Positions 15,518 to 51,400 of a stretch of 51,400 nt of DNA are shown piece after piece. Position 1 is the stretch's first letter, and every line of letters starts with the position of its first letter. The stretch comes from a bacterium HR11 (lineage in GTDB: Bacteria; Acidobacteriota; HRBIN11). Location: positions 1 through 51,400 of the forward strand of contig BEHN01000021.1 in the NCBI GenBank assembly GCA_002898535.1. The letters run 5' to 3'. Made by a program: the position numbers and the translations under genes. Below the pieces are notes generated by a model. That model was not told where the DNA came from. It did not search any database and saw only the letters and a list, made by a program, of their open reading frames with translations.

Positions 15518-15790
15518 TACGAGATGCAGGATACAGGACACGAGATGCAGGATGCAAGATACAAACCGTTTATCCGGGCCGTTCGGTTCGTGAAAACCCG
15601 TATGGATTCGGCCTTTCCGAACCTTCGGGGCGGACAGTTTTTGAAGGGACGGAGTGACAAGCAGTGGTCTTGGGCCGACGGGCCGGTCGGGGGTTCGGGA
15701 ATTCGGGAGTTCGGGGGTTTGGGAACTCGGGCATCAGGGGGCTGGCAGGGGGCGGGGATGAGGCCTTTCGGCCGGAGCCGGCGGTAATGG
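15518..15790. repeat. Family-A word array followed by a one-ended copy of the MITE-like element
   Basis: 15518-15563 is an array of GAGATGCAGGATACAGG-type words. At about 15576 begins GGGCCGTTCGGTTCGTGA, continuing into the same terminal sequence found at both ends of the elements at 26.8 and 32.4 kb. Next are the shared GGTCTTGGGCCGA segment (15668-) and a TTCGGGAATTCGGGAG array (15695-15733). A GC-rich stretch (about 15744-15787) also occurs inverted inside the 32.4-kb element. No inverted right terminus is present. This fills most of the 423-bp gap 15502-15924. Confidence 0.75.
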
Positions 15791-24632: not shown

Positions 24633-24733
24633 AGTGCGGGCGTCGGGTGTCGGGTCCGGGGCCCGGTCGGGCATGGCATGCCGTGTCCCTACGGCGCCTC
24701 GGGTGGCTCCGGGTGAGACGTGAGGAGAGTGGT

Positions 24734-26833
24734 ATGGACCGACCCCTGCGGATTCTCATCCTCGAAGACGTCCCGACGGACGCCGAGCTCGTCGAGTGGG
24801 AGCTCCGTCGGGCCGGCCTCGTATTCACGAGCCGGCGGGTCGACACGGAGGCCGACTTTCGGGCGGCCCTGGACGACTTCGAGCCGGACGTGATCCTGGC
24901 CGACTACAGCCTGCCCCAGTTCGATGCGATGGCGGCCCTCCGCATCCTCCGGGACCGGGCGTCCGACGTGCCCTTCATCCTCGTCACGGGCTCCCAGGGC
25001 GAAGAGGTCGCCGTCGAGTGCATCAAGGCGGGCGCCGCCGACTACATCCTGAAGACCAGCCTGACCCGTCTGCCGACGGCCGTCCAGAACGCTTTGGAGC
25101 GGCGGGAGCTCGAGCGGGCCCGGCGGCGGGCGGAGGAAGAACTCCGGTATCAGCTGACCCGCATGCACCTCCTGAACCGCATCGTCCGGGCCATCGCCGA
25201 ACGCCAGGACGTGCGGAGCATCCTGGAGGTCACGCTTCAGTACCTGGAAGAGCACATGCCCGTCGCTTATGCCGGCATCGGCCTCTACGACGAGGCGACG
25301 CAGACGGTCCGGGTCCTCCACGTGGGTCCCCGGAGCCGGGCCCTCGCCGAGGCCCCCGAAGTCGGGCCGGGCGCGGTCGTCTCCGTCGACCCGGCCGTCC
25401 TTCGGCGCGTCGTGGAGGACAAGGTCCTGTATATCCCGGACCTGCCGGTCGACTCGCCGCTTTATCAGAAGCTGGTCCGGGCAGGCATCCATTCGGTCGT
25501 GACCGTTCCCCTCTTGGTCGATGGTCGGCTCTTTGGTCTGCTGGCCGTCTTTCAGCCGACGGCCTACGCCTTCAGCCCGGCGGACCTGGGCTTCCTGCAG
25601 GCCCTGGGCGAGCACGTCGCCCTGGCCATTCAGCACGCCCGCATCCTGGAGGACCTGCAACGGGCTTACGAGGACCTGCGGCAGACCCAGCGGGCCGTCA
25701 TGCAACAGGAGCGCCTCCGGGCCCTGGGCCAGATGGCCAGCGGGATCGTCCACGACATCAACAACGCCCTGTCGCCCATCCTGGGCTACGTCGAGCTCCT
25801 GCTGGAGACGGAGCCGGATCTGAACGAGCGGGTCCGGCGCCAGCTCGAGATCGTCAAGACGGCCGCCGCCGACATCGCCCACATCGTGGCCCGCATCCGG
25901 GAGTTCTACCGATCCCGGGGGGCCGACGAGACGCTGTTCCCGGTCGACCTCAACCGGGTCGCCGAGCAGGCCGTCGACCTGACGCGGCCCCGCTGGCGGG
26001 ACATCCCGCAGGAGCGGGGGCTCGTCATCGAGGTCCGCATGGAGCTTGAGCCGGGCCTGCCGACGGTCCTGGGCCAGGAGGGCGAAATCCGGGAAGCCGT
26101 CGTGAATCTGATCCTGAACGCCGTCGATGCGATGCCCCGGGGCGGCGTCCTCACGATTCGCACGTTCCGGCGGGGCGATCGGGTCGCCCTGGAGGTGCAG
26201 GACACGGGCGTCGGTATGGACGAGGAGACCCGCCGGCGCTGTCTGGAACCCTTCTTCACGACTAAGGGGAAGGCCGGGACGGGCCTCGGCCTGGCGGTCG
26301 TCTACGGCGTCATGCAACGGCACGAGGGCGACATCCAGATCGAGAGCGAGCTCGGACGGGGGACGACCGTTCGGCTCGTCTTTCCCCTGCCGACGGGTGA
26401 AGCCGGACGGCCCCGGCCTCCGGCCGAAGAAGGGGGACCCCTGGAGCGGTCCCTGCGCGTCCTCGTCGTCGACGACGAGCCCCTCCTGCGGGAGCTCATG
26501 AAGGAAATACTCCAGGGCGACGGCCACGAGGTCGAGGTCGCCGACGGCGGCCAGGCCGGGCTGGACGCCTTCCATGCGGCCCTGGCCCGGGGGACGCCCT
26601 TCGACGTCGTCATCACCGACCTGGGGATGCCTTACGTCGACGGGCGGGCCGTCGCTACCGCCGTCAAGCAAGCCTCGCCGGCGACGCCTGTCATCCTGAT
26701 GACCGGCTGGGGGACCCGCCTGAAGGCCGAAGCCCCGATTCCGCCGGTCATCGATTACGTCTTGGAGAAGCCGCCCAAATTCCACGAAGTCCGCCGGGCC
26801 CTCCGCCAAGTCGTCCGTCTTAAGCACACCTAA
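24734..26833 (+). CDS. Hybrid sensor kinase: REC-GAF-HisKA-HATPase-REC
   Basis: 699 residues from ATG 24734 (AGGAG 8 nt upstream; the frame's earlier start lacks support). The N-terminal receiver has D57 in VILADYSLP. A GAF domain (about 150-305) follows. The HisKA-type phospho-His is H340 in MASGIVHDINNALSPILGY, and the HATPase has N462, DTGVGM and GTGLGLAVV. A C-terminal receiver carries D629 in VVITDLGMPYVDG. Soluble, no membrane segment. Two receivers flanking the kinase permit multi-step transfer with the preceding regulator. Its TAA stop coincides with the edge of an inverted-repeat element. Confidence 0.94.
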   Translation: MDRPLRILILEDVPTDAELVEWELRRAGLVFTSRRVDTEADFRAALDDFEPDVILADYSLPQFDAMAALRILRDRASDVPFILVTGSQGEEVAVECIKAGAADYILKTSLTRLPTAVQNALERRELERARRRAEEELRYQLTRMHLLNRIVRAIAERQDVRSILEVTLQYLEEHMPVAYAGIGLYDEATQTVRVLHVGPRSRALAEAPEVGPGAVVSVDPAVLRRVVEDKVLYIPDLPVDSPLYQKLVRAGIHSVVTVPLLVDGRLFGLLAVFQPTAYAFSPADLGFLQALGEHVALAIQHARILEDLQRAYEDLRQTQRAVMQQERLRALGQMASGIVHDINNALSPILGYVELLLETEPDLNERVRRQLEIVKTAAADIAHIVARIREFYRSRGADETLFPVDLNRVAEQAVDLTRPRWRDIPQERGLVIEVRMELEPGLPTVLGQEGEIREAVVNLILNAVDAMPRGGVLTIRTFRRGDRVALEVQDTGVGMDEETRRRCLEPFFTTKGKAGTGLGLAVVYGVMQRHEGDIQIESELGRGTTVRLVFPLPTGEAGRPRPPAEEGGPLERSLRVLVVDDEPLLRELMKEILQGDGHEVEVADGGQAGLDAFHAALARGTPFDVVITDLGMPYVDGRAVATAVKQASPATPVILMTGWGTRLKAEAPIPPVIDYVLEKPPKFHEVRRALRQVVRLKHT

Positions 26834-27091
26834 CAGAGCCGTTCGGTTCGTGAGAATGGCGTCGGCACAGCCTTTCCCAACGCCTGGGAAGCACGGTTTT
26901 TCAAGCATTCGGCAGATGGGCAGGTCGGCAGATAGGCAGATAGAAGCCGGGTGGGCAAGGATCAGCCCCAGGGCTTTTGGGACCATCTGCCCATCTGCCG
27001 AACTGCCTATCTGCCAAAGCTTGAAAACCGTCCTTCCCGAAGGGTCGGAAAAGCCGAATTCACGCGGGTTTTTACCAACCGAACGGCTCTG
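26834..27091. mobile_element. MITE-like element with about 72-bp terminal inverted repeats
   Basis: The 258-bp segment starts CAGAGCCGTTCGGTT and ends with the inverse AACCGAACGGCTCTG. The inverted similarity continues for about 72 bp into each end (through CGGTTTTTCAAGC / GCTTGAAAACCG) with mismatches. The core holds GGCAGATGGGCAGG-type words in both orientations. CTAA sits immediately outside each end (26830-26833, part of the kinase stop; 27092-27095), a possible 4-bp target duplication. There is no ORF. Related ends occur at 32.4-33.0 kb and 15.6 kb. Confidence 0.78.
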
Positions 27092-27095
27092 CTAA

Positions 27096-27968: not shown

Positions 27969-28213
27969 ATCCGGCAGTTCGGGAGTCCGGTCCCAACCCC
28001 CCAATACCGAATCTCCCATCTGCCCACCGGTCGGACTGCCGAATTCCCGAACGGCCGGATCGTGCCCGACCCCGGTCTTGCGAGCGGGGCTGGGATGAAT
28101 CTTTGCGGGCGGGACCGGGATGAAATTTGTGAGCGGGGTCGGGATGAAAATGACCCACCGGCCCGACCTGCCCATCTGCCGAACTCCCGAACGGCCGCGC
28201 TGAGGAGTCGCCC
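27969..28213. repeat. Mosaic of repeats splitting the etfB-etfA pair
   Basis: Contains CATCTGCC words (28015-28050 and 28160-28185) and CGAATTCCCGAACGG words. A hairpin CCCCGGTC-TTGC-GAGCGGGG lies at 28073-28092. Three tandem degenerate copies of GAGCGGGGCTGGGATGAA follow (about 28083-28150, the later ones GGGCGGGACCGGGATGAA and GAGCGGGGTCGGGATGAA). No ORF. AGGAG lies 7 nt before etfA. Confidence 0.75.
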
Positions 28214-29209
28214 ATGGGCATCGTCTGGACGATCGCCGACCATCGGGGCGGTCGACTGAATCCGCAAACGGTCGAGCTGGTCGCCGCCGCCCAGGAGCTG
28301 GCCGAACGTCAGGGTCATCGGGTCTGGACCGTCCTGGCCGGGGCCGACCCGGCGCCCCTGGCGGAGGCGCTCCGAGTTTATCAGATAGAGAGAATCGTCT
28401 TATTGAAGCATCCCCAGTTGGCCTATCTATCGGCCTTTCCCTTCCTGCAGGCGTTGCGGTTTCTGGCCGACCGGACCGAACCGCCGGTCTGGGTCCTCTA
28501 TCCTCACACGTACCGCTACTATGACATCGGGGCCCGCCTGGGGGTGGCCTTCCGGTCCGAGACGGTCTCGGACGTTCAGCGCATCGTCTGGGACGGGGCC
28601 GAGCCGGTCCTGATCAAGCCGACCTTCATCAACAAGTTCATCGCCCGGATTCGTCTGACGGGGCCGGGGCCGCACGTCGTCGGTCTTCAGCCGGGCGCCG
28701 TCTCGGCCGATCTCGTGCGGACGGGTGGGTCTCCGGAAGTCCTGGAACTGACGCCGGACATCCGGCGGTCTGGCCAGCGGCACCTCATCCGGAGCATCGA
28801 GGCCGCCCGGGGGAAGGTCGACCTGGCCAACGCCCCTATCATCGTCGCCGTCGGCCGGGGCATCGGGAGTAAGGAGAACCTGGCTCTCGTGCAGGAACTC
28901 GCCGACGCCCTCGGGGCGGCCCTGGGGGCGTCCCGGCCCGTCGTAGACGCCGGGTGGCTTCCCTTCGAGCACCAGATCGGCAGTTCAGGCCAGACGGTCG
29001 CTCCCAAGCTGTACATCGCCGTCGGCATCTCGGGGGCCATGCAACACGTCGTCGGCATCAAGGGCTCGAAGGTCATCGTGGCCATCAACAAGGACCCCGA
29101 GGCCCCGATCTTCAAGATCGCTCACTACGGGATCGCGGAAGACCTCTTCAAGGTCGTTCCGGCGTTGACGAAGAAGGTCCGGGAGTGGAAAGAGAAGGGC
29201 CTCCTGTAG
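28214..29209 (+). CDS. etfA: Electron transfer flavoprotein alpha subunit
   Basis: 331 residues. The C-terminal FAD domain is diagnostic: [38 protein letters not shown] (read in parts), [20 protein letters not shown], and [21 protein letters not shown]. The N-terminal domain has the expected alternating strands and [16 protein letters not shown]. It binds the redox FAD and docks with EtfB. It is the last gene before the TnpB element and ends 11 bp before a possible gene remnant on the other strand. Confidence 0.96.
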
Positions 29210-29220
29210 CCGCCGCTCCG

Positions 29221-29346
29221 TCACCTCATCGTCTCAACATTCCCCACAGGCTGGGTCAGGTACAGGTAGGCGTTGACGTCTTGTGACCACGCCTGCAGGG
29301 TCCGGGCCTCCGCCGGCGACAGGCATGGTTGGACGGTAACGGCCAG
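29221..29346 (-). pseudogene. Possible C-terminal gene remnant next to the TnpB element
   Basis: On the minus strand a frame reads through about 41 codons, including LSPAEARTLQAWSQDVNAYL, to TGA at 29221-29223. It has no start of its own and its codons resemble genuine genes. Upstream it runs into the hairpin-bearing left flank of the tnpB unit, as if a gene had been cut by insertion. The family is not recognised. Confidence 0.35.
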
Positions 29347-29356
29347 ACGACGGAGG

Positions 29357-29379
29357 ACCTCCCCAGAAGAAGGGGAGGT
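29357..29379. repeat. Perfect hairpin at the left flank of the TnpB element
   Basis: ACCTCCCC (29357-29364), loop AGAAGAA, GGGGAGGT (29372-29379). Subterminal hairpins at IS200/IS605-type ends are the sites recognised by TnpA; this one is a candidate left end, about 110 bp before tnpB. More GC-rich dyads lie at 29420-29480. Confidence 0.45.
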
Positions 29380-29491
29380 GACGGACGACCTCTGGTGAGG
29401 GACGTTTGGGAGGTCCTCACTTCCGCCTGCGGGCGGCTCTACGGGCGCCGCTCGGCCCGGCGCCGGGCCCGGCGGGCCCTGGAGCGATGGG

Positions 29492-30808
29492 ATGCGGGTG
29501 AGGCAGGCTTTCCGGTTCGAGCTGGACCCGAACCGGGGCCAGCGGCAGGCGCTGGCCCGGCACGTGGGGGCGGCGCGGTGGGCCTACAACTGGGGCCTCG
29601 CCCTGTGCCTCAAGGCCTTGGAAGAGGGGAGGAAAATCCCCTCGGCCATGGAGCTTCACAAGGCGTGGAACCGGTGGAAGCGGGAGAACGCCCCTTGGTG
29701 GCAAGAGGTGTCCAAATGCGCCCCCCAGGAGGCGCTCCGGGACCTCGAGCGGGCGTTCCGGGGCTGGCGGGCGGGGCGGGCCGGGTTGCCCCGCTTCAAG
29801 CGCAAGAAGGCCGCGGCGGACAACAAGGCCCGGCTGACCGGGGTCATTCGGGTGGAGGACGAACGGCACGTGCGGTTGCCGCGTATCGGGCGGGTGCGGA
29901 CCAAAGAGCGGACGACGAAACTGCGGCGTCTTCTTGAGGAGGGTCGGGCCCGCGTGCTTTCGGCCACGGTCTCGCGGGAGGCGGACCGGTGGTACGTGAG
30001 CCTGACCTGCGAGGTCGAGCGGCCGGACCCGGCGCCCGTGGAGGGGGACGTCGTGGGCGTGGACGTGGGCCTGAAGGATTTCGCCGTGCTTTCGGACGGC
30101 GAGAGGATTCCGGCGCCCAGGCCGCTGGAGCGGGCGCTCCGGCTTCTTCGGCGGCGCGCCCGGCAGCTGGCCCGGAAGCGGAGGGAGACCCGGGTCGTGA
30201 AAGACGAAGCCGCCGGTCGGGAAAGGGTCATCACCGTGTGTTCCCGCAATTATGAGAAGGCGGCCCTGCGGCTGGCCCGGCTGTATCGTCGTATTCGCAA
30301 CATCCGCATGGACTTTCTGCACCAGGTGACCACGCGGCTGGCGAAAACCAAGTCGGTCGTGGTGGTCGAGGACCTGGCCGTGGGGGCGTTCATGCAAAAC
30401 GGGCGTGTGAGCCGGTCGGTGGCCGACGTCGGGTGGGGGACGTTTCGGCGGCTCCTGGGATACAAGACGCGGTGGTACGGGAGCCGTCTGGTGGAGGCGC
30501 CGCGCCGTTTTCCGTCCACGCGCATGTGTTCGCGGTGCGGGTGGGTGCGCAGGGAGCCGCTACCGCTCCATGAGCGGACGTTTCGGTGTGGGGCGTGTGG
30601 AATGACCGCGGACCGGGACCTGAACGCGGCGCTCAATCTGCAATCCTACGGGCTGGCCGTCCTGAACGGCCCTACCGGGAGTTCCCCGGGAAGTCACGCC
30701 TGTGGAGATCGGCTCTGCGGCGGAACGGGGCCGACCCCGGTCTACGAGCACCCGGTCGGTGAAGCAGGAAGTGGCCGGTCGTCTATGGAACCCGCCCGGG
30801 TGAAATAG
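29492..30808 (+). CDS. tnpB: TnpB-family RNA-guided nuclease of an IS200/IS605-type element (no tnpA)
   Basis: 438 residues. The N-terminal helix-turn-helix/WED-like part begins with LDPNRGQRQALARHVGAARWAYNWGL, a TnpB signature. The split RuvC site is intact: D191 in VGVDVGLKDFAV, E293 in VVVEDLAVG and D374 in TADRDLNAALNL. The zinc finger is C346/C349 and C366/C369. TnpB uses an RNA from the element's right end to cut DNA matching the guide and helps the element persist. No tnpA is found on either side, so mobility would need a transposase in trans. ATG 29492 has GGAG 8 nt upstream. The C-terminal tail reads VGEAGSGRSS, typical of the family. Confidence 0.93.
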   Translation: MRVRQAFRFELDPNRGQRQALARHVGAARWAYNWGLALCLKALEEGRKIPSAMELHKAWNRWKRENAPWWQEVSKCAPQEALRDLERAFRGWRAGRAGLPRFKRKKAAADNKARLTGVIRVEDERHVRLPRIGRVRTKERTTKLRRLLEEGRARVLSATVSREADRWYVSLTCEVERPDPAPVEGDVVGVDVGLKDFAVLSDGERIPAPRPLERALRLLRRRARQLARKRRETRVVKDEAAGRERVITVCSRNYEKAALRLARLYRRIRNIRMDFLHQVTTRLAKTKSVVVVEDLAVGAFMQNGRVSRSVADVGWGTFRRLLGYKTRWYGSRLVEAPRRFPSTRMCSRCGWVRREPLPLHERTFRCGACGMTADRDLNAALNLQSYGLAVLNGPTGSSPGSHACGDRLCGGTGPTPVYEHPVGEAGSGRSSMEPARVK

Positions 30809-30840
30809 ACGACGATGAGTCACGGAACGGCCATAAACCG
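30620..30840 (+). ncRNA. Probable omega-RNA (reRNA) region overlapping the tnpB 3' end
   Basis: In this family the guide RNA scaffold is transcribed from the 3' end of tnpB through the right end. The tail here has the usual mix of coding and stem-forming sequence, for example GGAACCCGCCCGGG and CACGG...CCGTG (about 30820-30840). The boundary and guide start cannot be fixed by eye. Confidence 0.4.
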
Positions 30841-30862
30841 TGGGCCATGCAGTATAATCCGA

Positions 30863-30884
30863 ACCCCGCACGCCAGTGCGGGGT
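30863..30884. terminator. Strong hairpin downstream of tnpB
   Basis: ACCCCGCAC-GCCA-GTGCGGGGT, a perfect 9-bp stem between convergent genes. No T-run follows, so factor-independent function is uncertain; its shape also matches the dispersed CCCCGCTC hairpin family. Confidence 0.5.
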
Positions 30885-30931
30885 CCTCCCTCATGGGGAC
30901 CCCGCAAACCGCCGCATCGTATCCTCCTATC

Positions 30932-30956
30932 CCGTAGGGACGGCCTGACCCTACGG
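30932..30956. repeat. CCGTAGGG hairpin
   Basis: CCGTAGGG (30932-30939) and CCCTACGG (30949-30956) form a perfect 8-bp stem with a 9-nt loop, 28 bp from the stop of the next gene on the minus strand. Confidence 0.5.
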
Positions 30957-30983
30957 AACGCGGCGATACCGAGACCTACCGCG

Positions 30984-31412
30984 TCACTCGACCCATATCC
31001 GGATTTTGGCGTCCTTGGCCTCGACGGTGACGATCTCCCCGTTGGGCAGGTCCTTCAGCCACTCGATCCACAGGCGGGGCTTGATTGGACGTAAAATCTC
31101 CAAGGACCGCTCCAAGGACTCTACCGGACGGTCGATCACTTCGCCGGTCTTCGGTCGGTCCGTCTGAGCCTGGGCACGGGCTCTCGTCCGCGCCAGTTCT
31201 TTTTCCTGTACGTCGACGGCCAGCTCCAAAAAGGCGACGACGGCTTCGACAGGCAGGTTGACCCGGACCTTGGCCCCTCTCTCGAGGTCATCGACGGTGA
31301 TGTGCAACCATCGGGGTGCCGGTCGCTCCGGCGGCGGATTCTTGAGGGCCTGCCGGATGGCTTGAAGGTCCCTTTTCAGGTCCTCGTCGGCCGACGGCCC
31401 ATGCCGCCTCAC
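30984..31412 (-). CDS. Unrecognised protein with a beta-rich repeat shared with its upstream neighbour
   Basis: 142 residues from GTG 31412, whose GTGA overlaps the stop of the upstream gene. An N-terminal charged helix (DEDLKRDLQAIRQAL) leads to WLHITVDDLERGAKVRVNLP, a second helical stretch rich in R/A/Q, and a C-terminal strand pair ending GEIVTVEAKDAKIRIWVE. The motif (D/V)xxxGAxVRVxLP and the closing strand are also found in the upstream protein, so the two are partial paralogues. No signal peptide, hence cytosolic unless exported otherwise. Function unknown; cotranslation suggests joint action. Confidence 0.72.
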   Translation of the reverse strand: MRRHGPSADEDLKRDLQAIRQALKNPPPERPAPRWLHITVDDLERGAKVRVNLPVEAVVAFLELAVDVQEKELARTRARAQAQTDRPKTGEVIDRPVESLERSLEILRPIKPRLWIEWLKDLPNGEIVTVEAKDAKIRIWVE

Positions 31413-32250
31413 GGCCGCGGCGTGACGATCTCGATCGACAGCCACTTCTTCGAGTCTCGGACCTCCAGGAGGACCTGTGAGTCGGGGGCCGAGGCCGGTC
31501 CCCCAAGGGACTGGATCAAGCGGTTCCGGGTCTCGGCGTCGATAGGCAAGGACGGGTCGTTCTGGAGCCACCAGACGGCCCACTGGAGGGGCAAGCGCAG
31601 GCGGACCATCGCCCCGTCCTCGACGTCGCGCATCTGAATCAGTACATAGCGCTGGAGGTTCTGGAATTTCTCGGGCCGGACTTCCGGGACGGACCGGGGC
31701 GCCACGCGAAGCCACGCCAGCTGGGCTCGGGCCAGTAGGTTCGGGTCCGCCTCCCGGGTCAGGATTTCCTGCAAGACCGGCAGAGCGAAGCGGCGCCGGG
31801 CGGGGTCCGGCCAGTACGAGAGCTGAAAGGCCGCATAGTATCGGACAAAGCGGTCCGGTGCCCGAAGGAACGATTGGTAGACCTCCCAGTAGCGGCCCTG
31901 ACCCGTCGTTTGATAAAGGCGGGCCGTGAGGTGAATGTACCGGACCCACAGGTCTTCAGCCGGCTCCGAGCGGTCCTGCCGCTCCAACCAGTCCTTCACA
32001 AAAGACCAAGCTTCAGCCGGCCGGCCCGGTCCAGACAGTCCGTCCAGGCCGACGCCAAGACGATAGAAGCCGTCGCCGGTGTCGGAGGCGACGCCTGCAA
32101 GGCCGGACAGATGAGGTCCCACCGATTCTGAAGGAGCCAGGCTTGGACCTTCTCTTCGACGGGCTTCTCCGAATGTCCGGCCCAGACCTCCGGGTCTCCC
32201 GAGCATGGGCCACGGCCCACGGCTAAGCCCACCGTCAGAACAGCAACCAT
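31409..32250 (-). CDS. Exported helical-repeat protein, apparently frameshifted
   Basis: An ORF from ATG 32250 (signal-like MVAVLTVGLAVG) encodes 84 residues and stops at 31996. The neighbouring frame continues the same sort of sequence (PAEAWSFVKDWLERQ..., 31409-about 32030) without a good start. Joining them by a -1 shift in the GGCCGGCCGG tract at about 32016-32028 gives a roughly 280-residue protein: helical repeats, then VEDGAMVRLRLPLQW and a closing DSKKWLSIEIVT strand like those of the downstream gene. Alternatives are a sequencing error, a true pseudogene, or two genes coupled by GTGA at 31996-31999. The family is not recognised. Confidence 0.6.
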
Positions 32251-32327
32251 GACCTCGACGGCCCTCCAAATCCGCGTGACCGACCCCTGGAGATCTAACG
32301 CCGGGACCGTCGAGGAGGTTAATCGGG

Positions 32328-32400
32328 GGTAGGGTGTTCGGGGCTGGGTGTTGGGCGTTCGGTATGCAGGACAGGGTCCCAGGTCCTGGGAGGACCCCCG
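32328..32400. repeat. GGGTGTTCGGGG word array and dyad
   Basis: GGGTAGGGTGTTCGGGGC and GGGTGTTGGGCGTTCGG words (32328-32362), then the dyad GGGTCCCAGG...CCTGGGAGGACCC (32375-32397). This and the next element fill the 761-bp gap 32251-33011, where I see no gene. Confidence 0.55.
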
Positions 32401-32419
32401 AGATACGATCCCAACCCCC

Positions 32420-32969
32420 CAGAGCCGTTCGGTTCGTGAGAATGGCCTCGGAACAACCTTTCCCATCCCCCGGAAAGTACGATTTTTCAAAGGGACGGAG
32501 GGACGAAGGGACAAGCAACGGTCTTGGGCCGATGGGTCGGTCGGGGGTTCGGGAATTCGGTCATTCGGGAAGGCCGTTCGACGGCCGACGTAGAAGGCAA
32601 GAGAGCATGGAGCGTTCCAAGTCCCCACGCCTCCCTGAAGCTTTCCTGACCCTTCGCCCTCTCTTGTCGCCGACCGCCGGCGCCGGCCTCCAGGCCTCAT
32701 CCCCGCCCCGGCTGACCTCCCCATGCCCGAGTTCCCGAACTCTCGAATTCCCGGATTCCCGGATTCCCGAATTCCCGAACGGTCGGATAGCTCCGGACCC
32801 CGCTCTAACGAGCGGGGCTGGGATGAAAATGGTCGGCCGGCCTTAACCTGCCGAACTCCCGAATTCCCGGACTCCCGGACTCCCGAATTGCCCTTGCTTG
32901 GAAAACCGTCCTCTCCGAAGGGTTGAAAAAGCCGAATCCATGCGGGTTTTCACGAACCGAACGGCTCTG
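32420..32969. mobile_element. Larger MITE-like composite element (550 bp)
   Basis: Starts CAGAGCCGTTCGGTTCGTGA and ends with the inverse TCACGAACCGAACGGCTCTG. Inverted similarity extends about 75 bp at each end. Internally it has GGTCTTGGGCCGA and TTCGGGAATTCGG words (about 32520-32577), the inverted counterpart of the 15.7-kb GC-rich stretch (32670-32705), and TTCCCGAACTC word arrays on both sides of a CCCCGCTC-TAAC-GAGCGGGG hairpin (32804-32823). No long ORF and no target duplication at its ends. It looks like two inverted modules joined head to head. Confidence 0.75.
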
Positions 32970-33011
32970 TAAAGATGGGGCCGGGGATGATAAGGCGAGG
33001 CACGGTGTCCA

Positions 33012-34232
33012 TCAAGTCCGGTAGCGGGCGTTCAAGCGGACGTAGCCCTCCGTCAGGTCCGAGGTCAGGACCGTCGTGCCGGCCGATCCCCGCCGCAGAC
33101 GGATGCGGACGTCGACGGTCGCCTGGCGGAAGAGCCGCTTGAGTCGTCCGTCCGGGTTCGACTGGAGCCGACCGTCGGCGTAGACCCGATAGGGGCCGAC
33201 CCAGACTTCGGCCTCGGTGGCCCGGAATCGAACGCCGGCTGAGCCGAGGGCCGCCAGGATCCGGCCCACGTTGGGGTCGCCCCCGGCGAGGGCCGTCTTG
33301 ACGAGGGGCGAGTGGGCCACGCGGTAGGCCAGCCGCCGGGCTTCCTCGAGAGACCGAGCGCCCTCGACGTGGACCCGCAGGACGCGGGACGCCCCTTCCC
33401 CGTCCCGGACGATGGCCTCGGCCAGATGCTGACAGACCCCCCGCAGAGCCTCCGCAAAGGCCGTCCATGCGGGCGTGTGCAGACGGATCTCCTCATGGCC
33501 GGCCGTCCCGTTGGCCAGGATGACGACCATGTCGTTGGTGCTCGTGTCGCCGTCGACTGTGATGGCGTTGAAGGACGTCTCGACGGCCTGCCGGAAGGCG
33601 ACGGCCAGGGCCTCCCGCCCGATGACGGCATCCGTCGTCAGGAAAGCCAGCATCGTCGCCATGTTCGGGCAGATCATGCCGGCCCCCTTGGCGATCCCCC
33701 CGATGCGGACCTCGGCCCCGGCGACCCACAGACGGGCGCCGGCGACCTTCGGGAAACGGTCGGTCGTCATGATGGCCCGGGCGGCGTCCATCCCGCCCCG
33801 GGGCGATAGGGCTTGGACGGCCTGGGCGATGCCCCGGCGGACCCGGGCCATCGGAAGGCGCGGCCCGATGACGCCCGTCGAGGCCACGACGACGGCCTCC
33901 CGCCGTTCCAGGCCGAGCGCCTGGCGGGTCCACTCGGCCATCGTCTGAGCATCCCGGAGGCCCTCCCGGCCCGTCCCGGCATTGGCGATGCCGCTGTTGG
34001 CGACGATGGCCTGCAGGAATGGGCTTCGGCGCACGTGCCGACGAGACACCTGGACGGGCGCCGCCGCAAAGACGTTTCGGGTAAAGACGGCGTCGGCGAC
34101 GGCCGGCCGGTCGCTGACGATGAGGGCCAGGTCCGGCTTGCCCATCGGCCGGATGCCGCAGGCGACACCAGCGGCCTGAAATCCGCGAGGATATGTGACG
34201 TGGCCGTCTTCGACGAATTCCCACGCTTTCAC
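33012..34232 (-). CDS. argJ: Bifunctional glutamate N-acetyltransferase/amino-acid acetyltransferase
   Basis: 406 residues. ArgJ recycles the acetyl group from N-acetylornithine to glutamate and often also makes N-acetylglutamate from acetyl-CoA. The self-cleavage site is intact: KGAGMICPNMATMLAF with nucleophile T193, as are GDTSTND, KTALAGGDPNVGRI and the closing ARYRT. GTG 34232 is the start: AGGAG lies 7 nt upstream and the protein then begins with the canonical short lead. It is last in the argCBGHJ run, separated from argH by 161 bp of hairpin repeats. No argA-like gene is present, consistent with a cyclic acetyl pathway. Confidence 0.96.
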   Translation of the reverse strand: MKAWEFVEDGHVTYPRGFQAAGVACGIRPMGKPDLALIVSDRPAVADAVFTRNVFAAAPVQVSRRHVRRSPFLQAIVANSGIANAGTGREGLRDAQTMAEWTRQALGLERREAVVVASTGVIGPRLPMARVRRGIAQAVQALSPRGGMDAARAIMTTDRFPKVAGARLWVAGAEVRIGGIAKGAGMICPNMATMLAFLTTDAVIGREALAVAFRQAVETSFNAITVDGDTSTNDMVVILANGTAGHEEIRLHTPAWTAFAEALRGVCQHLAEAIVRDGEGASRVLRVHVEGARSLEEARRLAYRVAHSPLVKTALAGGDPNVGRILAALGSAGVRFRATEAEVWVGPYRVYADGRLQSNPDGRLKRLFRQATVDVRIRLRRGSAGTTVLTSDLTEGYVRLNARYRT

Positions 34233-44845: not shown

Positions 44846-45847
44846 GCCCGAATAGCCCAGGACCGTCTCCTTCAGGAATACTTTCAGATACGGCGTCGGC
44901 ACGCCCAGGACGGCCTTCCGCCGGATCATGTCGCAGTCCCGGCACGGGACGACCTTCGAGCAGTCCCGCAGGCGCATCGCCCGCCGGAGCCTCTGCATGG
45001 GTTCCCCGTTCCAGATGGCCCGGAGCGTCTGCTCCCGGACGTGGCCGACCTGGAGGTCGCAGTAAAAGTCCTGGGGACAGGGAGCGACCCGCCCGTCCCA
45101 GTGGATGACCAGGGCGTACCAGGGAAACGTGCAGGGCGTAAAGACGTGTCCGACGGCGTAGCCGGACCGGTCGTAACTGCCGGCCCAGTTGTGAGGCTCC
45201 TTAATGATGAACTCGTCGAGGGGCAGGCCCTCGAACTGACGTTCGAACTCATACCGCTGAGGCGAGGTCGGCGACAGCTTCTCGTTGAGGTGGATGACTT
45301 CCAGGATCGTATACGGCTTCTTCGAGCCCCGGGCCTTCTTGATCTCGAGGAACCGGATGATGTTGGCCAGCGTCTTCTCGAAGCGGGCGTTGACCCGAAT
45401 CGACTCGTACGTCTCCTTATCGAAGCCGTCGAAAGAGAAGGACAGCAGGTCCAGGCCGGCGTCGATGAGGGCATGGGCCAGGTCTTCCCGGAGGAGGGTC
45501 CCGTTGGAGTGAAGCCGGGTGTAAATGCCGGCCTGGCGGGCATACGCAATCATGTCCGGCAGACGCTTGTGCAGGGTCGACTCCCCCGTGTGGTGGAGGT
45601 TGATGTCGTAGACGAACTCGGCCGCCTCGTCGATGACCTTGCGGAAGAGGTCCCAGTCCATATACCCCTTGGGATGTTCTCGGGGGAAACTCTGGGGGCA
45701 CATGACACACCGCAGGTTGCAGTAGCTTGTCGGCTCGACCCACAGACGGATCGGCAGGTAGGGCAGGACCTCATGGCCCCGCAGGTAGTGCCAGGCGGCC
45801 TGCAGGAGCGTCTTGCGGACACGCCAGGGAAATCGAGCTAAACCCAT
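44840..45847 (-). CDS. Radical SAM/SPASM-domain protein
   Basis: 335 residues. The radical SAM cluster motif is C43-NLR-C47-VM-C50, then a GE strand (HHTGESTLHKRL) and SFDG. The C-terminal half has the SPASM pattern of auxiliary-cluster cysteines: CTFPWYALVIHWDGRVAPCPQDFYC (in parts) and later CSKVVPCRDC. Such proteins modify peptides or small molecules, or act in cofactor and lipid-head maturation; no peptide precursor lies next to it, so the substrate is open. GGAG lies 7 nt before ATG 45847. A long hairpin-rich leader precedes it. Confidence 0.9.
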   Translation of the reverse strand: MGLARFPWRVRKTLLQAAWHYLRGHEVLPYLPIRLWVEPTSYCNLRCVMCPQSFPREHPKGYMDWDLFRKVIDEAAEFVYDINLHHTGESTLHKRLPDMIAYARQAGIYTRLHSNGTLLREDLAHALIDAGLDLLSFSFDGFDKETYESIRVNARFEKTLANIIRFLEIKKARGSKKPYTILEVIHLNEKLSPTSPQRYEFERQFEGLPLDEFIIKEPHNWAGSYDRSGYAVGHVFTPCTFPWYALVIHWDGRVAPCPQDFYCDLQVGHVREQTLRAIWNGEPMQRLRRAMRLRDCSKVVPCRDCDMIRRKAVLGVPTPYLKVFLKETVLGYSGQ

Positions 45848-46058: not shown

Positions 46059-46145
46059 AAGGTCCCGAGGCCGCCGGGCCCTTTCCCGTCGGGTCGACCT
46101 GAACGACCTGCCCATCGGGAATGCCGCGACCCAACACCCGATCCC

Positions 46146-50061: not shown

Positions 50062-50090
50062 ATTATCCCACAGTCGGGGACCCACGCCAA
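50062..50090 (-). promoter_or_regulatory. Candidate promoter of the ndk-fadN operon
   Basis: Minus-strand TTGGCG (50085-50090), exactly 17 nt, then GATAAT (50062-50067), 35 nt before the ATG. Confidence 0.55.
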
Positions 50091-50190
50091 GGCGCGCCCT
50101 CGACCCGCGGTGGCAAGACCGAAGCTTGGGCAGGGGATACCGAAGGCTGTGGATGCCCTCGTAACCGAGGGGTGTACGGTGGCCGGACAA

Positions 50191-50263
50191 GGGGACGCCG
50201 GCATGACGGCCGGCGTTCGGAAGAGGGGTAGCAATCTGCCTATCTCCCGACCTGCCCACCTGT
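50191..50263. repeat. ACGCCGGC hairpin copy and CTGCC word array
   Basis: GACGCCGGCATGACGGCCGG plus CGTTC (50194-50218), a near-perfect copy of the dispersed hairpin, followed by CAATCTGCCTATCTCCCGACC words (50232-50260, family B) up to the stop of the first Uma2 gene. Confidence 0.7.
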
Positions 50264-50832
50264 CAGTCAACGAATAGCTCCCCCACGTCCACGACCAAAT
50301 CGGGGACGGCCCGGCTCCGGACCGTCCCCGCCCCCCGGGCCCGCCCGTACAGCCGAAAGGCCCCGCCCTCCAAGACGTACACCTCCACCCCCGCCGTCTC
50401 GGGGTCCACGACCCAGTACTCCCCGACCCCCGCCCGCTCGTAGTCCGACCGCTTGCCCCCCCGGTCCGCCTCGGCCGTCGACGGCGACAGGACCTCGACG
50501 ACTACGTCCGGCGCCCCCTCGATGTGGGTCTCCCGAATCCGGTCCCCGTGCTCCCTCAGCACGACGACCAGGTCCGGTTGATACACCGTGTCCTCCGACA
50601 GCTTCACGTCCGTCGGAGATACGAAAACTTCACCGCCCCGAGTCTGGTCGAATACCTCAGCCCACTTTCGGGCTAAGCGCAATACAATGCGTTGATGCCG
50701 TATATTGGGTGCCGGACTCGGCATGGGAACCCCCCGGACGAGTTGCCAGTACCCCGGCTGGCCTTCCGCCCACCGGCGAAAGTCCTCATAACGCTCGAAA
50801 CGAATCCCCGGCTCGACGACCGCCTTCCCCAT
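50263..50832 (-). CDS. Uma2-family (DUF820) putative endonuclease, copy 1
   Basis: 189 residues. The family fold resembles PD-(D/E)XK nucleases: the start of the core SPTDVKLSEDTVYQPDLVVV supplies the catalytic-type Asp, and PDVVVEVLSPSTAEADRGGK supplies the ExxxxxxxxxxK-like part with YERAGVGEYWVVDPE after it. Function of Uma2 proteins is unresolved. ATG 50832 follows GGAG at 7 nt. Nearly all the gene is identical in DNA to the next copy, except a 74-bp internal block (50617-50690). Confidence 0.9.
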   Translation of the reverse strand: MGKAVVEPGIRFERYEDFRRWAEGQPGYWQLVRGVPMPSPAPNIRHQRIVLRLARKWAEVFDQTRGGEVFVSPTDVKLSEDTVYQPDLVVVLREHGDRIRETHIEGAPDVVVEVLSPSTAEADRGGKRSDYERAGVGEYWVVDPETAGVEVYVLEGGAFRLYGRARGAGTVRSRAVPDLVVDVGELFVD

Positions 50833-50846
50833 GTCGGGTCTCCATC

Positions 50847-50869
50847 GGCCCGGGACCAAGACCCGGGCC
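50847..50869 (-). terminator. Hairpin between the two Uma2 genes
   Basis: GGCCCGGG (50847-50854), loop ACCAAGA, CCCGGGCC (50862-50869): a perfect 8-bp stem just after the stop of the upstream copy. No T-run. Confidence 0.45.
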
Positions 50870-50874
50870 TGCCG

Positions 50875-51400
50875 TCAGTCGGCGAATAGCTCCCCCACGT
50901 CCACGACCAAATCGGGGACGGCCCGGCTCCGGACCGTCCCCGCCCCCCGGGCCCGCCCGTACAGCCGAAAGGCCCCGCCCTCCAAGACGTACACCTCCAC
51001 CCCCGCCGTCTCGGGGTCCACGACCCAGTACTCCCCGACCCCCGCCCGCTCGTAGTCCGACCGCTTGCCCCCCCGGTCCGCCTCGGCCGTCGACGGCGAC
51101 AGGACCTCGACGACTACGTCCGGCGCCCCCTCGATGTGGGTCTCCCGAATCCGGTCCCCGTGCTCCCTCAGCACGACGACCAGGTCCGGTTGATACACCG
51201 TGTCCTCCGACAGCTTCACGTCCGTCGGGGCGAAGAACACATCCCCCAGCTTCTTGCCTATAACGAATTTTCGAAATAGGACGTACAACTCACCCAGAAC
51301 ACGTTGATGCCGTATATTGGGTGCCGGACTCGGCATGGGAACCCCCCGGACGAGTTGCCAGTACCCCGGCTGGCCTTCCGCCCACCGGCGAAAGTCCTCA
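50875..51400 (-). CDS. Uma2-family putative endonuclease, copy 2 (5' end outside the window)
   Basis: The frame continues to the window edge; the visible 174 codons include EDFRRWAEGQPGYWQLVRG, the same N-terminal sequence as copy 1, so the true start lies beyond 51400. The core motifs (QPDLVVV, VEVLSPSTAEADRGGK) are identical to copy 1. The only large difference is the segment reading RVLGELYVLFRKFVIGKKLG, where copy 1 has RIVLRLARKWAEVFDQTRGG. It is a tandem duplicate in the same orientation, offset by exactly 612 bp. Confidence 0.9.
   Translation of the reverse strand, partial: EDFRRWAEGQPGYWQLVRGVPMPSPAPNIRHQRVLGELYVLFRKFVIGKKLGDVFFAPTDVKLSEDTVYQPDLVVVLREHGDRIRETHIEGAPDVVVEVLSPSTAEADRGGKRSDYERAGVGEYWVVDPETAGVEVYVLEGGAFRLYGRARGAGTVRSRAVPDLVVDVGELFAD

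Follow-up and report, generated by a model that had tools for sequence, protein, structure and literature searches.

What is the 258-bp stretch at positions 26834–27091 of the window, the 51,400 nucleotides of HR11 DNA analysed here, which lies directly behind a hybrid kinase gene and whose two ends are inverted copies of each other? A preliminary description regarded it as a non-autonomous transposable element and not as a simple terminator, and this reading is borne out by many copies, a 4-bp target-site duplication (TSD) and absences in sister species. Very probably, the stretch is a member of a large and modular family of miniature inverted-repeat transposable elements (MITEs), which are non-autonomous DNA transposons and here are foldback-like. 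The family has moved, it duplicates 4 bp at NTAN, its tips are conserved, and its ends have a left and a right polarity. The genome that contains the window (G000; 2.99 Mb in 49 contigs, 95% complete) has been compared with those of two sister species, G001 and G002, and these three are the genus genomes referred to below.

The tips of the window element, 26834–26848 and 27077–27091, are perfect 15-bp inverted copies of CAGAGCCGTTCGGTT. The left-type end module A (26834–26910, plus strand), for which a profile was built from 83 seed copies, consists of the outer tip CAGAGCCGTTCGGTT and the inner box AAGCACGRTTTTTCAAGC. The right-type end module B (27016–27091, minus strand) has the tip of A, another linker and the inner box GGACGGTTTTCAAGC. 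The left inner arm (26908–26941, plus strand) is made of tandem 8-bp units, GGCAGATG, GGCAGGTC and GGCAGATA, and the right inner arm (26985–27018, minus strand) is the same octamer array (GGCAGATN) in inverted orientation, the two being 88% complementary over 34 nt. The outer arms are 79% complementary over 33 nt, and arm pairing and fold delimit a central loop region (26942–26984, plus strand). As single-stranded DNA, the 258-bp element folds back over its full length with −87.5 kcal/mol (z = −11.0), a value equalled by none of 200 shuffles. The ends of 26834–27091 are two different modules with the tip in common, folded over a tandem-repeat hairpin. Of the 72-bp terminal inverted repeats (TIRs) described previously, the inverted ends and perfect 15-bp tips are there, but the repeat is not a single simple one, because the inner arms are tandem 8-bp units and the ends are modules A and B with a common outer box and an inner T-rich box. 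Only two mechanical ORFs, of 81 and 110 aa, overlap the element, in agreement with the earlier statement that it contains no ORF. CTAA stands directly outside both ends (26830–26833 and 27092–27095), also as described; the hybrid kinase ORF (24647–26833) has the TAA of the left one as its stop codon.

The window element (plus strand, A-B type) is far from being single-copy. Of 588 candidate places in a BLAST search with the element, the 40 that were scored are all near-full-length, with 92–97% identity except for the query itself, so that there are at least 40 such copies in the genome. The 14-bp tip AGNGCCGTTCGGTT has 209 exact occurrences in G000 and its reversed control has none, indicating that the tip is not a product of chance. 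There are 228 A ends genome-wide (20-mer, up to 3 mismatches; reversed control, 0), and 85 and 77 genomic matches to the 36-bp B core and to the C core, respectively, with up to 3 mismatches (controls, 0). The family comprises well over a hundred short copies in G000, and it is multicopy and dispersed as MITEs are. A search of 40 genomes, namely G000 and 39 relatives, gives matches in the three genus members only; the 37 relatives outside the genus have no match to the element, nor have the plasmid records, phage records and viral contigs searched. The best G001 copy is 85% identical to the window copy, and G002 has weak partial matches to it only. With the end profiles, 200 kb of G001 yield 33 ends and 133 kb of G002 yield 7, while 860 kb of unrelated bacterial loci, used as a control, yield 1 weak hit.

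The family was surveyed in about 620 kb from 140 regions, located around ends and including some contig ends and small contigs, and the counts obtained there are not genome densities. Profiles from the fetched stretches distinguish four end modules, A, B, C and D, of about 75–80 bp each, which share the outer tip CAGAGCCGTTCGG and an inner box around GATTTTTCAAGC and differ by type in the linker between them. The 147 convergent end pairs are 81 A-B, 40 C-D, 12 A-C and 14 others. A left-type end (A or D) faces a right-type end (B or C) in 135 of these 147; 73.6 are expected, and none of 5000 shuffles gave more than 95. The TIRs of a MITE are thus present both as the perfect 15-bp tips and as profile-defined ends in 147 convergent pairs. 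Another 92 ends are unpaired, so that many copies are truncated or one-ended; a solo B-like end at 15574–15646 of the window (plus strand) is a copy of this sort.

The interiors of the subfamilies are wholly different, consisting of 8-bp tandem arrays (e.g., GGCAGATN, ATTCCCGN and GTGACGGA), small hairpins (e.g., GACACCGCCATGACGGGCGGTGTTC) and larger tandem-inverted blocks. A-B elements are mostly 257–262 bp long and C-D elements 277–532 bp, and the elements are short and without coding capacity, as in MITEs. A second A-B element in the window (32420–32969, plus strand, 550 bp) has the ends of the 258-bp element around an unrelated interior of GGGACGAA and ATTCCCGG arrays and GC-rich hairpins. 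In the 258-bp class, the lag-8 self-match is 0.51 (49 copies) compared with 0.27 after shuffling, and the mean pairwise identity of 39 copies is 94%. Paired positions of this class vary about five times more in the ends than in the inner hairpin arms, and compensatory change is practically nil (1 cell versus 131 broken). This pattern could be accounted for by recent amplification together with subfamilies exchanging their ends, and it is not evidence of a selected RNA fold. C-D elements such as those at loci L241 and L242 contain a variable number of REP-like hairpins of about 33 bp, similar to GATGACACCGCCATGACGGGCGGTGTTCAGAGGG. The spacer between the ETF-beta and ETF-alpha genes (27990–28190) has octamer arrays and GACCCCGCTCTTGCGAGCGGGGCTGGGATGAAA-like hairpins and no element ends, indicating that such modules also occur alone.

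The suggestion that CTAA at the two ends is a target duplication, with the call to examine the 4-bp flanks of other copies, has been followed across the family. Among 128 elements of the main pair types with both ends, 56 have identical 4-bp flanks, whereas 10.6 are expected and at most 22 were obtained in 3000 shuffles, in which right flanks were reshuffled. C-D elements alone give 26 matches in 40 (5.2 expected), and matches of 3, 5 or 6 bp are at or near chance, so the TSD has the fixed length, 4 bp, that characterizes MITEs. Both sides carry TA in 83 elements, and both outer bases agree in 53 of them, compared with 12.0 expected. Since the outer bases match this often, the duplication is 4 bp and not merely TA, and a TA-only duplication of the IS630/mariner type is ruled out. 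The target is NTAN, chiefly TTAA, ATAA, CTAA, TTAT and CTAT; CGAA, TCAG and TCAA are off-consensus duplications. When a genome is GC-rich, NTAN sites probably cluster at stop codons and in intergenic DNA, which by itself may account for the copies being intergenic. The TSD is established by these family-wide statistics and not by the window copy, where it is not clean: the element lies at an inversion breakpoint, and CTAA is found at both ancestral junctions in G001.

Comparisons between the sister species have shown that the elements are present in one and absent from another at orthologous sites, as expected for MITEs. Contig C3 of G000 bears several elements in a 20-kb stretch with which contig C281 of G001 and contigs C63 and C536 of G002 are colinear. 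Of these elements, E2, E3 with E4, E5, E6 and E7 are absent from the G001 spacers and also from the G002 spacers where these are covered. At E4, TTAG is read straight through in both relatives. The 550-bp element of the window is absent in G002, in which a 36-bp spacer replaces 685 bp around the element. Conversely, G001 has an A-B-like element (C308:10257–10522) between matches to window positions 46129 and 45870, and G000 has none there. The empty sites looked for in relatives thus exist as orthologous spacers lacking elements, but these spacers are diverged and replaced and are not letter-perfect empty sites with a single TSD. Nor does synteny speak against mobility, the element position not being conserved and matches being confined to the genus. 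The region 29205–33012 of the window is itself variable, because about 72 bp stand there in G001 for the whole stretch; a TnpB-like protein with OrfB_IS605, HTH_OrfB_IS605 and Cas12f1-like TNB domains is encoded at 29492–30808.

IS5-group insertion sequences use a YTAR target and duplicate 4 bp. This raises a narrower form of the MITE explanation, in which the ends derive from a lost insertion sequence of that group. The flank composition of the family, T/C/A-T-A-A/T/G, together with the 4-bp duplication, resembles YTAR, a target for which the literature also includes IS711, and BrickBuilt, a MITE with tandem repeats, has IS5-type tips (PMC4596501). Against this, neither PF01609 (DDE_Tnp_1) nor PF05598 (DUF772) has a match in G000, G001 or G002, so that the DDE transposase with matching TIRs typical of the IS5 family was not detected in them, and no insertion sequence with these tips was found for comparison. 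We do not assign the family to IS5, since the transposase that defines that group was searched for without success; an IS5-like origin of the ends is conceivable but doubtful. The transposases of the IS701 and IS1380 families, represented by PF13546 (DDE_5) and PF13701 (DDE_Tnp_1_4), likewise gave no match in the three genus genomes. For 80 ORFs next to unpaired ends, the Pfam families listed, at most the top 25 per batch, are those of host genes and include no transposase. A full transposase with the same ends, which had been suggested as a further check, was therefore not found with four Pfam families in three genomes or among the families listed for these 80 ORFs. Convergent pairs longer than 700 bp, as candidates for an autonomous element, are those of C8 (721 bp), C18 (920 bp), C13 (1174 bp) and C5 (2839 bp). 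The C18 and C13 pairs were rejected, since they enclose ordinary genes, which we take to encode a ComEA-like and a phosphoribosyltransferase-like protein, and are probably formed by independent ends. The first base of contigs C4, C14, C38 and C41 lies 164 or 194 bp into an element end. Several contigs start or stop within an element, so the assembly seems to be interrupted by the repeats, and collapsed copies or a multi-copy autonomous element may be missing from such a fragmented assembly.

A very different explanation is that the stretch is a fixed intergenic regulatory hairpin, such as a terminator, an mRNA stabiliser or a structured RNA, which has been selected and vertically inherited. 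The very stable fold of 26834–27091 would suit such a role, as would the finding that 84 of 93 copies tested lie less than 150 bp from a gene. However, the genes on the two sides occur in every orientation and convergent pairs are not enriched, the window has no Rfam match, and the near-total lack of compensatory change reported above does not suggest a conserved fold. Moreover, orthologous spacers of the sister species lack the elements, and the 37 relatives outside the genus have no match. A fixed hairpin as the origin of the copies is refuted by these data, and the explanation as a whole is highly improbable; individual copies may still have a secondary role in regulation. Slightly less probable again are palindromic repeats of the REP/BIME or ERIC type, possibly moved by a REP-associated tyrosine transposase, which would account for a high-copy, intergenic, palindromic sequence and for the 33-bp REP-like modules inside C-D elements, small hairpins on which a Y1 transposase may act, but not for tips of a defined 15 bp, for the left and right polarity of the ends or for the 4-bp target duplication. 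So clear a duplication argues against the whole element being of the REP or REPIN type, which consists of short tagged palindromes without a TSD, and it would not be expected from REPs mobilised by tyrosine enzymes.

By its structure, the element is a bacterial MITE. Type II bacterial MITEs include the size-variable Chunjie of Geobacter uraniireducens, the Correia elements of Neisseria and the QMITEs of Coxiella (PMC10969869). The present elements are like these in having 180–550 bp, TIRs, direct repeats, no gene, a high copy number, mostly intergenic positions and many partial copies, and in that homology to insertion sequences is limited to the TIR or lacking. They are unlike them in having four interchangeable ends in two polarity classes and interiors unrelated between subfamilies, with no parent insertion sequence recognised here. 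BrickBuilt (MITEPgRS) of Porphyromonas gingivalis has a MITE "leader" and "tail" around a variable number of tandem direct repeats, with one 23-nt repeat, 19 copies, IS5-matching tips and irregular TSDs (PMC4596501). It resembles the present family in that MITE ends enclose tandem repeats, in its intergenic location and in its restricted host range, whereas here 8-bp arrays lie in inverted arms, copies are far more numerous, the 4-bp TSD is regular and no matching insertion sequence was found. Likewise, the YTAR-like target duplication of 4 bp is shared with the IS5 group, but no IS5-type transposase domain was found in the genome or in the genus (three genomes). In foldback (FB)-type elements, a variable middle is enclosed by long inverted arms that consist of short tandem repeats. 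The likeness to these eukaryotic elements, e.g., Tetris (PMC4079207) and Tm1 (PMC3169594), is one of anatomy only: the window element folds back on inverted arms that are built of short tandem repeats and are 88% complementary, but it is bacterial, much smaller and has a 4-bp NTAN target, and no relationship is claimed. The nearest designs are thus BrickBuilt, Chunjie and, by anatomy only, eukaryotic foldback elements, and what is unusual about the family is how many copies there are, that the interiors are unrelated and that four interchangeable ends fall into two polarity classes.

For a MITE family of this kind, we infer that a DDE-type transposase acting in trans would recognise a bipartite end of about 75 bp, formed by an outer cleavage tip and an inner T-rich box, and would excise or copy any DNA between one left-type and one right-type end. 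The element would then enter the target at a staggered cut of 4 bp at NTAN. As nothing but the ends would matter, the interior could freely be replaced through slippage of the 8-bp arrays, nesting of hairpins and recombination between copies, and subfamilies with unrelated interiors would result, such as A-B elements of 258 bp, C-D elements of 277–532 bp and A-C hybrids. The transposase may have been lost, may be missing from the assembled genomes or may belong to a family other than those searched. In its most ambitious form, this leads to a bacterial foldback-like platform, in which one transposase outside the searched families mobilises any DNA between left-type and right-type bipartite ends of about 75 bp, subfamilies swap ends and build interiors from 8-bp arrays and hairpins, and copies help to drive inversions; this form is speculative and on balance unlikely. 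Sister species that differ copy by copy make the origin of MITE subfamilies by end exchange directly testable. The growth of short tandem repeats inside transposons and the seeding of inversions by hairpins can also be tested in a 3-Mb genome with hundreds of ends, and the fixed tip with the left/right end rule is a bait for the missing transposase.

Relative to G001, a 23-kb segment (27092–50080) is inverted, and the window copy coincides exactly with its left breakpoint; only hairpin and octamer debris lies at the right breakpoint, about 50077–50285. In G001, which has no element there, CTAA comes after the kinase gene, and after CTAA a gene that we take to be ndk, which in G000 lies at window position 50077 on the other strand; the match runs back to window position 45371. 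A second G001 contig matches the window from 27092 onward, with CTAA immediately before the match and before the ETF gene, and in G002 the gene of window 50285–51400 adjoins the ETF gene. Taken together, these junctions indicate that the segment between 27092 and about 50080 lies the other way round in G000. One ancestral junction is kept in G001 and one in G002, so the inversion appears to be derived in G000 and specific to its species. The presence of CTAA at both ancestral junctions in G001 suggests that the CTAA pair at the window copy may predate the element, which may have been involved in inverting the segment or may have inserted later at its junction. Among named organisms, the ETF-beta protein encoded next to the element has its closest relatives in Acidobacteriota MAGs, with at most 48% identity, which would make the genome Acidobacteriota-like. 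At the far end of the window, which is a contig end, 50285–50802 and 50897–51400 are two direct copies of one gene, presumably Uma2-like, whose G002 relative is the one adjoining the ETF gene.
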